A stretch of DNA of 64,000 nt from Symplocastrum torsivum CPER-KK1 (lineage in GTDB: Bacteria > Cyanobacteriota > Cyanobacteriia > Cyanobacteriales > Coleofasciculaceae), in contig JAHHIF010000031.1 of the NCBI GenBank assembly GCA_019358875.1, forward strand, positions 1 to 64,000, given 5' to 3'. Shown in pieces: positions 2,393-40,407 of the stretch. The first letter of the stretch is position 1; the number at the start of each line of letters is the position of its first letter. The translations under genes and the position numbers were made by a program. The notes beneath the pieces were generated by a model. That model was not told the DNA's origin. It did not search any database and saw only the letters and a list, made by a program, of their open reading frames with translations.

Positions 2393-5164
2393 ATGACCGC
2401 AACAACGCCCAACCTGCAAACTCAATACGACCCTACGGCTACGGAAGCTAAATGGCAAAAGTTCTGGGAAGAACACCAAATCTTTAAAGCTGATCCCAAT
2501 CACGACAGCGAACCCTACTCCATTGTGATTCCGCCGCCCAACGTGACTGGCAGCTTGCATATGGGTCACGCCTTTGAACATGCCTTAATTGATACCCTCA
2601 TCCGCTACCACCGGATGAAAGGGCGCAATACTCTTTGGCTACCAGGAACCGACCACGCCAGCATTGCGGTATCTACGATTCTGGATAGGCAACTCAAAGA
2701 AGAGGGCAAAACTCGCCAGGACTTAGGACGCGAGGACTATCTCACTCGTGCTTGGCAGTGGAAAGAAAAATCAGGGGGTACGATTGTTGGACAACTGCGA
2801 CGCTTGGGTTTGTCGGTAGATTGGTCGCGGGAACGGTTCACGATGGATGAAGGCTTATCCAAAGCGGTGCTAGAAGCCTTTGTTCAACTGTATGAGGAAG
2901 GGCTAATTTATCGAGGCGAGTACCTAGTCAACTGGTGTCCTGCCACTCAGTCTGCTGTCTCGGATTTGGAGGTGGAAAGCAAGGAAGTAGAGGGGAATCT
3001 CTGGCACTTCCGCTATCCCCTCACAGATGGCAGTGGTTATGTAGAAGTGGCAACAACTCGACCGGAGACAATGCTAGGAGATACGGCTGTGGCTGTTAAT
3101 CCTCAAGATGAGCGATATCAGCACCTAATTGGTAAGACGCTGACGCTGCCACTGATGGGGCGGGAAATCCCAATTATTGCCGATGAGTTGGTTGACCCAG
3201 CATTTGGTACAGGTTGTGTAAAGGTGACACCTGCCCATGACCCGAATGACTTTGAGATGGGTCAACGTCACAAGCTGCCGTTCATCAACATTATGAATAA
3301 GGATGGCACGTTGAATGAGAATGCAGGGACGTTCCAAGGGCAAGACCGTTTTGATGCCCGCAAAAATGTGGTGCAGCAACTGGATACTGAGGGGTTTTTG
3401 GTGAAGGTTGAGGATTACAAGCATACAGTGCCGTATAGCGATCGCGGAAAAGTCCCCGTCGAACCCCTCCTCTCTACTCAATGGTTTGTCAAGATTCGCC
3501 CCCTCGCTGACCGCACGTTAGAATCCCTAGACGAGCAGAATTCACCTGTATTTGTGCCTCAACGGTGGACGAAAGTCTATCGCGATTGGCTGGTAAAGCT
3601 GACAGACTGGTGCATCTCGCGGCAACTCTGGTGGGGACACCAAATCCCAGCCTGGTATGCAGTCAGTGAGACGGGAGGACAAATTACTGACTCAACTCCG
3701 TTTGTGGTGGCGAAGACTGAGCAAGAAGCACGGGAAAAAGCAAGTACACAATTTGGCACGGATGTCAAGCTAGAGCAAGACCCAGATGTTCTCGATACCT
3801 GGTTCTCGTCGGGACTGTGGCCGTTTTCAACCATGGGTTGGCCGGAAGAAACTCAGGATTTAGCGACTTACTACCCGACTACTACACTGGTTACGGGTTT
3901 TGACATTATCTTCTTCTGGGTTGCCCGGATGACAATGATGGCAGGACATTTCACAGGTCAGATGCCATTCCAGAATGTTTATATTCATGGACTGGTGTTG
4001 GATGAGAACGGCAAAAAAATGTCCAAGTCGGCGAACAATGGTATCGATCCGTTGCTACTGATTGATAAATACGGTACAGATTCTCTGCGCTACACCTTAA
4101 TAAGGGAAGTGGCAGGTGCGGGTCAAGATATCCGTTTGGAATACGATCGCACAACTCAAGAGTCGGCATCAGTGCAGGCATCCCGGAATTTTGGAAATAA
4201 ACTGTGGAATGCTGCCCGGTTTGTGATGATGAATCTGGATGGCAAAACGCCGCAAATGCTAGGGAATCCAGCCTTGCAAGGAAATCTGGAATTAGGCGAT
4301 GGCAAAGCGTCAGCGAGTCTTCAAGCGTCTCGCTGGATTCTCTCACGCTTCCAGCAAGTGGTGCGTCAAACCAGTGATTATCTGGACACCTTTGGTTTAG
4401 GTGAAGCGGCAAAGGGACTCTACGACTTCATCTGGGGGGACTTCTGTGACTGGTATATTGAATTAGTTAAATCCCAATTACGTGAAGATGCCACGTCCCC
4501 ATCTCGGCAGATTGCTCAAGCAACCCTTGCCTATGTACTAGAAGGCATCCTGAAATTGCTCCACCCATTCATGCCGCATATTACTGAAGAAATCTGGCAT
4601 ACACTCACTCAAACAACTGAGGATTCCCTCGCTGTTCAACCTTATCCTGAAATCAACTCTCAGCTAATTGACCCAGAACTGGAGCAACAGTTTGAGCTGC
4701 TAATTGGTACAATCCGTACAATCCGCAACCTTCGGGCTGAGGCAGATGTGAAGCCAGGGGTGAAGGTGTCTGTTATTCTGCAAAGTGGGAGCGATAAGGA
4801 ACGCCAAATCCTTGAAGCGGGTCAGTCATATATTCAAGACTTAGCCAAAGTGGAGACATTGACAATTACCCCAGAACTCTCAGGAGAACTCAAAAGAACT
4901 ATGGCAGGTGTCGTCGGCACCATCCAAGTCCTGATGCCCCTCGCTGGCGTTGTAGATGTAGATGCCCTCTCTGCTAAGTTAAAGAAAGATTTAGCGAAAG
5001 TGGAAGCGGAAATCAAAGCTCTTTCCGGGCGTCTAGCCAATCAAAACTTTGTTAACAAAGCTCCAGCAGAAGTCGTACAGGGTGCGAAGGAAGCTTTGGC
5101 GGAAGCCGAAAAGCAAGCGGAAATTTTGCGATCGCGCCTCAATCAAATTGCAACAGAATCTTGA
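2393..5164 (+). CDS. valS: Valyl-tRNA synthetase
   Basis: A class I aminoacyl-tRNA synthetase that charges tRNA-Val, with an editing domain that removes threonine. The class I signatures are visible: HMGH at residues 56-59 and KMSKS at 542-546. Between them are the CP1 editing-domain motifs ([17 protein letters not shown] near residue 222) and [10 protein letters not shown] near 415. The anticodon-binding domain follows, and the last 65 or so residues form a Lys/Glu/Ala-rich coiled coil ([21 protein letters not shown]), which is typical of ValRS. The length of 923 aa is near full size. The next ORF begins 38 bases downstream on the same strand and may be co-transcribed. No T-box-like leader was seen, as expected for a cyanobacterium. 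Confidence 0.97.
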
Positions 5165-32819: not shown

Positions 32820-35318
32820 TTATGCCACTTGATAGATAAAGCTCAGCGTTGCCCAAGCATTCACATCCAGGGCATAGGTGTCGGAAACTGAGCTGATAGA
32901 GTCTGGCGCGTAGGACGACGTTGTTGCCATCTGCATGGCACTGGCTTTATGTAAGTCTTGCAGCACTGCCTGCACTACTTCCAAGGGGTTATATAAATCA
33001 CCAATTCGATCTCCTTCTCCTTTAGGACGCTTTGCGGCTTCTAGTGCCACCACCGCTTTAGTGAAGGGAGCGCGACTGCAAATCAATTGAATTTCTGCAA
33101 GTCCGGCAGGGCCAGGGACAACCCAATCTGTATCAGCCGAAGATTGGGGTAACACGAGAGTTTCTCCGGGTGCGATTACTGCATTTTTTAGGGGTGGCTT
33201 ATTTTCCGAGAATTGTGCTTCCTGAAAGGATTGAATTTTATAAAGAGCGATCGCACTGCTGCTAGTATCCAAACCAATTAGCATGAAATACACTGGGTAC
33301 TCGCTATAGTTTTCGAGCCGATACTGAATGCGACTGCCAATCGGCAACGTTGGAACACTTCCCTCTGCCCAAGGGGTTGCTAAGTCAGGTGCCGTCTTTT
33401 TATCCACTAATGCCCTTAAACCCTTTCCCTCTCCTGCTTTTGGAGAATCACACAAAGGAGGACATTGTTTGGGTGATGAAACCGCCCGTAGTGTTTGTTG
33501 TTGCATCACCACAACTTGCTCTGGGGCAATCATTTCTATTGAGGCTCGGATGCCCAAACGGGACGACCCTTCATTAGCCGTTAGACGCAGCAATTTTGCC
33601 GCTAGCAATGTTTTCAGTTTTGGGATGAGCCGATTGACCGCTGACTTCACTGCCTCTCCAGCTTCCCCAGTTGTATTCTGAATCGGATTATGGGCAAGAG
33701 AAAATAGACCATAACCCTCTGCCCTGATTGAGGAATCATCACCATCTGTCGGAGTAGGGTCAGAATCAGTGTCTTGCGATGACGTTACCTTTCCGAATAA
33801 ATAATCAGCAGGTTGTTCCCCCACAACTACCACCGAAGAGACAGAGGGAACGTTAGCAAAAGCACTCGTTGCATCCACCCGCTCAATTCGTTCGAGTGTT
33901 GCATCCAGGGCGATAGTAAGACCAAGATTGCGGGGTAACACCCGGACAGCTTCTTGAACCAACTGTCCAACCTGTAGTTGGGAATTATCAGCAATACTTT
34001 GGCTAATAATCCGCGCTCTTGCTGTGAGACCCTCTTTTGAGCGAACTAGGAGTTGTGGAGGTTTGGCAGAAGCTAGGGGGGTGAAATTTCCCTGTTCTTT
34101 GTTATCTTCAGCCTCCGAAGGGAGCGATGCGATCGCGTTTTGACGAGACAAGGTAAATAAAGAATTAGCACCGTAGTACTCTAAGACAGTCGCAGGTAAG
34201 CCAGCTAGCCACAACTGAACGCTCCTACCACTCTCTTCAACAGCCGTCACGACACCATCTGCGCCAATGCTAGGGTCAGGTGGCAGATAATACGCCAGCA
34301 AGGGCTGATGAATACGTTCTTGAGTAATAAGTTGAGGCTGCTGCTCTTTACCGACTAGCTGATTGACCATCCCAGCCGCACGACTCAGGCTAATTTGAAC
34401 CGTCGTTGCAGGTGCAGCTTGCCACAGATACTGAGTTAGAGCGTAGGTAAATAAGCCAGCACTGAAGCCATTCCACTGCGCCTCAGCAGCGGGTTGGCTT
34501 GGACCAGCAGCGGCGAGAACAATCCCTGGTTGTTGATTTTGGCTTTTGGGCTTCTTGAGTTGTTTCCAGGATGTATTGAGACGGCTTAGAAGTTGTTCTT
34601 GAAAAGCAAGTTCTGCCGGAGAGGGACTATCTGCCGGAGGATTAGGGCAAGAGCGCACGCGAAGATTGCCTTGAAGGACACTCTCAGTCTCATTATGGCT
34701 GGTATCCAATACTGTAGTAACGTGGTCGGTAGCAAGCGATCGCAGTAGCAAAACCAGTGTTTCTTCGAGCAAATCGTTAGCAGTTGCTACTCCTTTGGTT
34801 GCCAGGAGGCTATCGACTGGTACTAAGCTGTTTACTTCATAAGCAACAGGTAAGCCAGATTCTTCCTCTTGCCTCTCGCCTCGTACCTCATACCTAGGCG
34901 AAGCCATCTTGACGCGACTCCCATAGCCGCTGAAGTGGAAGACTACCACATCACCCGCTTTGGCTTGCTCAGTCAGATGCTCAATAAAGGCAGTTTCAAT
35001 ATTCTCCCTGGTTGCTTGGATATCCGTCAGTGTTAAGATATCGCTGGCGTTGAAGCCAAAGCGATGAATCAGGAGTTCCCGTTGCAGCTCCACATCTGTG
35101 ACACAACCACCCAACGCTGTGCCACGAGGATATTGGTTAATTCCCACAAGTAGCGCTAACTTCCGACCACCTGATTGAGCCAGTGCCTGAAAATAGCGAT
35201 CGAACAGAGGCAGTGCTAAGCTTTTATCACCCAAGAGTGATAGCACCGTTTCACTGATACCTAGTGATACTAGTGCTAATCCAGCCCGTTGCAGAAAAGT
35301 ACGCCGATCAAGTCCCAT
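32820..35318 (-). CDS. Tat-exported pseudo-orthocaspase with DUF4384-like C-terminus
   Basis: A caspase-fold (p20) protein of 832 aa. The N-terminus MGLDRRTFLQRAGLALVSLG is a twin-arginine signal. The p20 core runs from about residue 50 (GGRKLALLVGINQYPRG) to about 215. The two catalytic positions are substituted: the His motif reads HFSGYG (128-133), giving Tyr132, and the Cys motif reads LDTSHN, giving Ser207 within D205-T206-S207-H208. So it should not be a cysteine protease; Tyr/Ser 'pseudo-orthocaspases' are described in cyanobacteria. The C-terminal part (GSRIQYRLENYSEYPVYFM onwards) resembles DUF4384. Heptamer repeats abut the start codon. Its partner or ligand is unknown. Confidence 0.85.
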   Translation of the reverse strand: MGLDRRTFLQRAGLALVSLGISETVLSLLGDKSLALPLFDRYFQALAQSGGRKLALLVGINQYPRGTALGGCVTDVELQRELLIHRFGFNASDILTLTDIQATRENIETAFIEHLTEQAKAGDVVVFHFSGYGSRVKMASPRYEVRGERQEEESGLPVAYEVNSLVPVDSLLATKGVATANDLLEETLVLLLRSLATDHVTTVLDTSHNETESVLQGNLRVRSCPNPPADSPSPAELAFQEQLLSRLNTSWKQLKKPKSQNQQPGIVLAAAGPSQPAAEAQWNGFSAGLFTYALTQYLWQAAPATTVQISLSRAAGMVNQLVGKEQQPQLITQERIHQPLLAYYLPPDPSIGADGVVTAVEESGRSVQLWLAGLPATVLEYYGANSLFTLSRQNAIASLPSEAEDNKEQGNFTPLASAKPPQLLVRSKEGLTARARIISQSIADNSQLQVGQLVQEAVRVLPRNLGLTIALDATLERIERVDATSAFANVPSVSSVVVVGEQPADYLFGKVTSSQDTDSDPTPTDGDDSSIRAEGYGLFSLAHNPIQNTTGEAGEAVKSAVNRLIPKLKTLLAAKLLRLTANEGSSRLGIRASIEMIAPEQVVVMQQQTLRAVSSPKQCPPLCDSPKAGEGKGLRALVDKKTAPDLATPWAEGSVPTLPIGSRIQYRLENYSEYPVYFMLIGLDTSSSAIALYKIQSFQEAQFSENKPPLKNAVIAPGETLVLPQSSADTDWVVPGPAGLAEIQLICSRAPFTKAVVALEAAKRPKGEGDRIGDLYNPLEVVQAVLQDLHKASAMQMATTSSYAPDSISSVSDTYALDVNAWATLSFIYQVA

Positions 35319-38997: not shown

Positions 38998-40407
38998 CTA
39001 CCAAGGACTACCAACTACTGTAAAAGCCGCCCAGTAGTAGGGGTGCGAAAAGTTCTGGTTCTCAATTTTTGCTAGTGCTGGTGGTAGAGGAATACGTCCT
39101 CCAGAACTGTTTAACTGACCATCTATCAGGCTCACTTGCCCGTTGAGAAGCGCAAGCTGAGCTTGGCGGAGGGCTTCGGCTTTAATGGGTGCTGTTTTCA
39201 AATCCCGATAAAATTCTGTCATCAGCGCTAAAGTTCCTTCATCGCTGACATTCCACAAACTTGCGATCGCTGATTTTACACTTGTCTGAACCGCTAACCC
39301 AGCAAAGCCTAATTCAGCTTGTTCATCTCCTATCGCCGTTTTACAAGCACTCAGCACTAACAACTCTACAGATGGGTTGTTCCACTGCAACTGCTTCATC
39401 TGCTCAAGTGTCAGCTTTTTGTCCCAAAACTGAACGTAGGAGTTACTCGGTACTCCAGACTCAAAAGAGGCATGAGTCGCTAGGTGAATAATTTTGAAGG
39501 GCTGTTGTTGGCGTTGCAACTCTAGATTAGCCAGCGTGAATTCTTGGTTGAGGAAGAATTCACCCTGCCATAGCTTGTTCGTGATAGTCGATAACTCGAC
39601 AGGTACAGCGGGTAAGGAGGCTTCCTCCCTAAATTCTGATGCACCCATTGCTAGAACTTGAGAATTTTCTAGATGAGCGTAGTTTGTATCGATCAGGTTA
39701 AAGGCAGGAATACGGGCAAAGCTATACTTCTCCACCAGAAACTGTTGCCCATCATGTAAAGCTGCCACTGGCATAGTACGCAATCCCGGTCCTAGGCAGA
39801 AGAGTAGCGTATCTATGTTTTGAGCTTCGAGTTCTGCCTCTAGGGGAGCAATCATCCACTGATAGAGTTGCTGGGCAGGTGCAAGATAGCGGTTCGTCTT
39901 CCTCCGAGCAGGGCTTACAATCGAGTTTGTAAACTCTTGCACTTGCTGAAGTAATGCTTCCTTGTTCGCTGCCGAGATGCGCTGGTGAATGGGTTCGCCC
40001 TCTGGAGTAACTAATACAAGTTCCAGGTGTTGCGGTTGAGGAACGATGTAGATGAGGGCAGGTTTTTTTCCAGTTTGAGTTGCAATTTTGCTTAGAGTAT
40101 CTGCGGCTTGCTCGACTGTCCTGGGGTGGTTGGGAAAGTTTCTCCCAAAATAAGCTTCAAATTTTTTTACCCAGTTGTGTTCAATGAGGAGTACCGCCTC
40201 AGCAATTTTTCCTCGGTCAAGAGTCCTTTGTATATCGGAGGTCTGAGCCGCTTGTGCAAGAAGGGTAGGACTTTGAGCAAGAGAACGATTACCAACCTTG
40301 TTGGGAGTTGAGATAAGTGTTTGTGCCCGTACTGATTCTGTATTAACGTTTCCGGCAAGATGTAGGACGGCTAGCAACACACTAATGCGACCAATTACTG
40401 ATTTCAT
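38998..40407 (-). CDS. Secreted CHAT-domain (caspase-like) protein
   Basis: A 469-aa protein with a signal peptide (ISVLLAVLHLAGNVN, cleaved near VRAQ) and a CHAT domain, the caspase-clan peptidase fold. Unlike the neighbour at 32820-35318 its catalytic dyad is intact: H312 in IIHLATHASFESG and C355 in LLVLSACKTAIG. The region of about 55-160 is a helical N-terminal module without visible TPR repeats. The CHAT core continues through GFAGLAVQTSVKSAIASLWNVSDEG. AAGGAG lies nine bases before the ATG. In cyanobacteria CHAT proteins often carry TPRs; this shorter extracytoplasmic form has no known substrate. Confidence 0.88.
   Translation of the reverse strand: MKSVIGRISVLLAVLHLAGNVNTESVRAQTLISTPNKVGNRSLAQSPTLLAQAAQTSDIQRTLDRGKIAEAVLLIEHNWVKKFEAYFGRNFPNHPRTVEQAADTLSKIATQTGKKPALIYIVPQPQHLELVLVTPEGEPIHQRISAANKEALLQQVQEFTNSIVSPARRKTNRYLAPAQQLYQWMIAPLEAELEAQNIDTLLFCLGPGLRTMPVAALHDGQQFLVEKYSFARIPAFNLIDTNYAHLENSQVLAMGASEFREEASLPAVPVELSTITNKLWQGEFFLNQEFTLANLELQRQQQPFKIIHLATHASFESGVPSNSYVQFWDKKLTLEQMKQLQWNNPSVELLVLSACKTAIGDEQAELGFAGLAVQTSVKSAIASLWNVSDEGTLALMTEFYRDLKTAPIKAEALRQAQLALLNGQVSLIDGQLNSSGGRIPLPPALAKIENQNFSHPYYWAAFTVVGSPW

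Follow-up and report, generated by a model that had tools for sequence, protein, structure and literature searches.

What might a caspase fold that has lost both catalytic residues, and that carries a signal for export, do in a cyanobacterium? The question arises from a gene of Symplocastrum torsivum CPER-KK1 in a 64,000-nucleotide stretch of DNA (the window), where an open reading frame encoding 832 amino acids from an ATG start occupies exactly positions 32820..35318 of the minus strand, the plus strand there being full of stops. A sequence-only reading of this DNA had given the same position and length, to which we add the strand, and had called the product a Tat-exported Tyr/Ser pseudo-orthocaspase. 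That name is right as regards the Tyr-Ser (YS) dyad, the leader, the S1 pocket, and the clade, with export being predicted, and we regard the identity of the gene (hereafter POC) as a YS pseudo-orthocaspase as secure. Each of the 39 relatives searched had an ortholog, as did hundreds of cyanobacteria, which is far beyond chance. The original observation is confirmed, and the interpretation placed on it is partly supported. As to function, the mechanism we favor is that POC helps to maintain membranes by binding through its pocket without catalysis; we put it forward tentatively, as slightly short of probable.

The domain layout described earlier, a p20 caspase core with a DUF4384-like domain near the C-terminus, was borne out. 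Following the leader (residues 1-47; 35178..35318, minus strand), a Peptidase_C14 match (PF00656) covers residues 52-331 (34326..35165, minus strand) with 74.1 bits against a Pfam cut-off of 21.4, and Pfam matched no further peptidase domain after residue 331. DUF4384 was matched at residues 658-751 (33066..33347, minus strand; 30.6 bits against a cut-off of 27), leaving 81 residues beyond it. The best Foldseek match of a structure predicted from 46 sequences (mean pLDDT 69, pTM 0.70) was metacaspase-9 (E 4.8e-14). The C-terminal half (residues 345-832; 32823-34286, minus strand) gave a confident fold model of its own (pLDDT 81, pTM 0.84), for which no PDB match was found at E ≤0.001, the weak best matches being F1-ATPase chains. 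This half includes a middle domain with the strikingly conserved RIERVDATSAF (residues 477-487; 33858..33890, minus strand), which is among the most conserved stretches of the protein.

The combination of a YS dyad, a Tat-like N-terminus, and an acidic pocket is already published: YS pseudo-orthocaspases of cyanobacteria, with a TAT-like N-terminus and the acidic pocket retained, were described by Klemencic et al. 2019 (PMC6426788), and the sequence-only reading had referred to them correctly. POC resembles these proteins, which include WP_012305740 of Synechococcus PCC 7002, in its Tyr/Ser pair, its TAT-like leader and AxA site, its p20 core, its acidic S1 pocket, and its cyanobacterial host. 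They lack p10, as POC may too. Most of them were reported without another domain (PMC6426788), whereas DUF4384 is recognized in POC; pseudo-forms with DUF4384 have been counted elsewhere (PMC8283722). The best solved relatives, the type II metacaspases MC9 and MC4 of Arabidopsis, share the p20 fold but have an active His-Cys dyad and lack both the Tat leader and DUF4384. POC falls outside that class (p20 and p10, a long linker, and His-Cys) as the dyad is absent. A role in anti-phage caspase defense was considered and rejected: PADLOC returned a match to a generic caspase model only, and the neighbors are sat, mnmA, PPK2, and other housekeeping genes.

Both substitutions were upheld by alignment. 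Tyr132 (34923..34925, minus strand), in HFSGYG, occupies the catalytic His site and aligned with the His of Arabidopsis metacaspases 9 and 4, while Ser207 (34698..34700, minus strand), in DTSH, occupies the catalytic Cys site and aligned with the Cys in the DSCYSG motif of paralogs from this genome whose dyad is intact. The alternative, that another His or Cys lies on the catalytic positions, was looked for by alignment, and none was found at either; His128 corresponds to a His found ahead of SGHG in active relatives as well, and Cys72 is an S1-pocket residue. Across 146 orthologs, position 132 was Y in 127, F in 10, L in 5, H in 3, and C in 1, position 207 was S in 115, G in 24, R in 4, C in 2, and A in 1, and no aligned ortholog had a His-Cys pair (0/146). 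The two positions evolve at around the median rate of the domain (56th and 47th percentile, respectively), the rates being coarse and the letter counts plain. Judged from sequence, POC would be proteolytically dead because the dyad is missing in every ortholog. Conversely, the acidic S1 pocket characteristic of YS forms appears to be kept, with residues assigned to it by equivalence to TbMC2: Asp75 (35094..35096; TbMC2 Asp95), Ser130 (34929..34931; the TbMC2 pocket Ser), and Asp205 (34704..34706; TbMC2 Asp211) were each unchanged in 146/146 orthologs, and Cys72 (35103..35105; TbMC2 Cys92) was C in 136/146, the others having A or S (all minus strand). The simplest reading would be that catalysis has gone across the whole clade and that a pocket for basic residues has been retained. 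The invariant Asp and Ser residues could serve the fold instead of binding, which counts against a binding role. Two Oscillatoria orthologs (L134 and L143) have Tyr-Cys pairs, in which the His site is Tyr and Cys has been either regained or kept at the other site. Such pairs, together with the facts that YS is the commonest combination and that Ser can be a nucleophile, might be taken to mean that POC is still a hydrolase with Ser207 (and Tyr132) as an unusual catalytic pair. We consider this extremely improbable, given that 29/146 orthologs have G, R, or A at position 207 and 19/146 have F, L, H, or C at position 132, with an unchanged pocket.

The leader of POC (MGLDRRTFLQRAGLALVSLG...) comprises the twin-arginine motif DRRTFLQ, an h-region, and a likely signal peptidase site, ALA/Q (47/48), and thus has the RR and AxA elements expected of the Tat-like leader of YS forms, with export predicted. 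Both the arginines and the cleavage site are conserved in the ortholog alignment. Arg5-Arg6 were found in 145/146 rows, with a gap in the remaining row, bearing out the twin-arginine start proposed earlier, and Ala47 was found in 136/146. What the exported form does had been called unknown. Some information on location does exist: in a proximity-labeling map of the thylakoid lumen of Synechococcus PCC 7002, lumenal PsbU-APEX2 enriched the ortholog A0101 (homologous to sll0148; log2 7.64), which was absent with cytoplasmic APEX2 (PMC7880944), and a knock-out also exists (PMC7889975). By orthology, therefore, POC is likely located in the thylakoid lumen or the periplasm. The lumen data come from a unicellular ortholog in a species other than S. 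torsivum, which counts against our preferred reading.

Twenty relatives matching the same profile have an RR leader, and their dyad is intact, in 19 by motif and in the twentieth (L229) by alignment of the tree set; an RR leader is therefore shared by dead and active forms, a point that differs from the published description of YS proteins (PMC6426788). Two of these dyad-intact (HC) orthocaspases are encoded in the S. torsivum genome itself (G000:C60, 742 aa, with DUF4384; G000:C64, 411 aa). Both resemble POC in leader and p20, and the long form also in the middle region and DUF4384, but both retain HxSGHG...DSCYSG and fall outside the dyad-less clade. POC grouped with the YS forms in the tree, and all dyad-less forms made up one clade (SH-aLRT 97, from a quick search that included Gloeobacter-family HC forms and excluded the longest branches). 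The HC clade had come out nested inside POC in an early tree that used distant outgroups, a result we put down to long branches; a single POC clade was not rejected (AU P = 0.749, on quick-search trees of an earlier sequence set), and the later tree gave the support stated above. These sequence comparisons fit a single origin of the dyad-less form. POC was not found in two Gloeobacter genomes of family f57 (G452, 4,659,019 bp, and G468, 4,724,791 bp), which we take to be G. violaceus PCC 7421 and G. kilaueensis JS1, respectively. Two other genera of this family (G493 and G518, the genes of the latter being less certain owing to 8% contamination) carry long HC forms, with an RR leader in 2/3. 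Tat-exported active paralogs, as in Gloeobacter-family genomes, are the likely source of POC. The two HC proteins of S. torsivum, one of the same length class and with the same domains, also raise the idea that POC is a decoy or dimer partner regulating active Tat-exported orthocaspases in the same cell, for which cFLIP and TbMC4 offer precedents (cited in PMC6426788). Synechocystis and some other unicellular species carry the pseudo-form only (PMC6426788), and we regard this idea as very unlikely, also in light of the endosymbionts discussed below.

The standing hypothesis ties pseudo-orthocaspases to photosynthesis: Gloeobacter, Prochlorococcus, and Cyanobium were reported to lack them, and participation in photosynthesis or in the biogenesis of thylakoids was proposed (PMC6426788). 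In a phylum sample of 386 genomes (counts tallied by hand, dyads read in part of the genomes), a POC match was found in 126 of the 127 PsbO-bearing genomes outside family f32, and in 0/57 PsbO-bearing genomes within it. We take f32, a Cyanobiaceae-like family, to be that of Prochlorococcus and marine Synechococcus. Given that f32 has PsbO and no POC, thylakoids can do without POC. The sole exception outside f32 in this sample is a 2.2-Mb genome of the same order (G400). One locus counted within the 126 (L169, genome G151, 1501-2670) has a stop at the catalytic-His codon and has lost most of the C-terminal p20 part and the middle region by deletion. A further genome (G084) was considered as non-photosynthetic for want of a PsbO match and was not counted, as its photosystem II genes are intact. 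The near-universal match in PsbO-bearing genomes outside f32, together with the lumenal location near PsbU (PMC7880944) and a psbO-sat-POC neighborhood in one genome, could suggest an assembly or repair factor for photosystem II. That neighborhood belongs to a 2.7-Mb, Synechococcus elongatus-sized genome in which psbO, sat, and an HG-type POC lie together (L265, G070); psbO was rejected as a general neighbor of POC, being found there in two lineages only. Against such a function, f32 has photosystem II without POC, photochemical yield was normal in the unstressed Synechocystis knock-out (PMC7889975), and purifying selection on POC persists where photosystem II genes are gone or decayed, as described below. 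A photosystem II factor is, in our view, decidedly unlikely.

Directly upstream of POC on the same strand lies sat, encoding ATP sulfurylase (PF14306 and PF01747; 35714..36895, minus strand), at a distance of 395 bp (in many relatives the gap is roughly 100-130 bp). The coding strand showed no terminator-like site in this gap of the window. Across 80 named relatives, sat was located within 600 bp upstream of POC on the same strand in 60 and 0.6-1.9 kb upstream in seven more, several of the remaining loci stopping at a contig edge. In a taxonomically spread set of 62 genomes (hand tally), it was close upstream and co-directed in 29 (one at 2.3 kb) and never opposed; linkage is hence absent in about half of this sample, which counts against our reading. 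The adjacency suggests that the two genes are transcriptionally co-regulated, not that their products touch, given that ATP sulfurylase should be cytoplasmic. A similar arrangement has been noted in one Nodularia genome, where sulfate adenylyltransferase adjoins metacaspase M32 (PMC4933709). M32 is likened to POC by its gene neighbor alone, and the phylum-wide breadth of the linkage is found only here. At another locus (L290, G654:C5, approximately 3198-3425), a decayed POC with stops persists 132 bp downstream of sat, marking loss in place in a free-living lineage. A second caspase-fold gene, 3.7 kb upstream of POC (38998-40407, minus strand), encodes a CHAT-domain protein that probably has a signal peptide and shows apparent His/Cys motifs (HLATH and LSACK); it was rejected as a functional partner, as it is present in 1/80 related loci.

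The sat linkage, along with the sulfur link proposed for Nodularia (PMC4933709), bears on another alternative, namely that POC is a pro-death or oxidative-stress signaling component tied to sulfur metabolism. Its other support is the knock-out of SyOC (sll0148), the sole pseudo-orthocaspase of Synechocystis PCC 6803, which grew normally and was more tolerant of H2O2 (PMC7889975). The same phenotype counts against the membrane-upkeep role that we prefer, with the qualification that SyOC, compared here by description, is a divergent homolog with a YG dyad. Purifying selection in an obligate endosymbiont with a 1.44-Mb genome (see below) is not what one would expect of a death gene, and we judge this alternative unlikely.

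Two genomes in our sample fit UCYN-A (G414, 1,443,806 bp; G413, 1,491,611 bp), and four fit diatom spheroid bodies (G176, 2,794,318 bp; G211, 3,020,309 bp; G442, 2,483,960 bp; G295, 3,072,807 bp), which are reported to retain thylakoids and not photosystems (PMC11070190, PMC5638926). D1 was absent or broken in 6/6, and the remains of CP47/CP43 in G176, G211, and G295 were full of stops. Nonetheless, all six encode a full-length POC with a YS dyad and the pocket residues CDSD by alignment (a Tyr-Glu dyad suggested for UCYN-A by a regular-expression reading was rejected, since alignment gives Tyr-Ser), POC is the only C14 (caspase-fold) gene in each, and TatC is intact. In both UCYN-A-like genomes, sat lies upstream of POC with a gap of 108-109 bp. 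For this pair, dN/dS was 0.146 for POC, 0.129 for sat, and 0.079-0.143 for other neighbors, and it was 0.145-0.149 for POC in spheroid-body pairs. POC is under purifying selection in these endosymbionts, with dN/dS near that of neighboring genes. In the open-access papers searched, we found no report of this retention. The tentative link to photosynthesis, which the sequence-only reading had given correctly, is weakened by a selected POC where photosystem II genes are gone or decayed. Likewise, regulation of active caspases cannot be the core function where POC is the only C14 protein, as in UCYN-A and the four spheroid bodies. A function limited to photosystem II, or to the control of active caspases, is at odds with these endosymbionts.

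The pocket-based binding role could then operate as follows. POC would fold in the cytoplasm, cross the membrane by Tat, and be cut after Ala47 of the ALA motif. The mature protein may act as a binding protein in the thylakoid lumen, or in part in the periplasm. There, basic (Arg/Lys) stretches of lumenal or membrane proteins would be held in its S1 pocket and left uncut, with partners being contacted through the conserved C-terminal half. It would help to maintain internal membranes that outlast photosystem II, or to cope with stress in them, and would not serve photosystem II itself. A broader evolutionary scenario, which we offer as a rather unlikely possibility, is a single origin of the dead caspase, at or after the appearance of thylakoids, from an active orthocaspase exported by Tat. 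It would then have become a general lumenal reader of basic protein segments, useful enough to internal membranes to be retained in the nitrogen-fixing, organelle-like UCYN-A (beside sat) and in spheroid bodies long after the loss of photosystem II.

POC is near-universal in cyanobacteria outside two lineages, and photosynthesis has been the standing hypothesis for its role. New here are its retention in endosymbionts, its likely source in Tat-exported active paralogs, and its conserved neighbor sat. With POC under selection in endosymbionts that have neither photosystem II nor an active caspase, two of the standing explanations can no longer be its core function, and the idea of service to photosystem II needs revision, as the family survives in relatives without photosynthesis.
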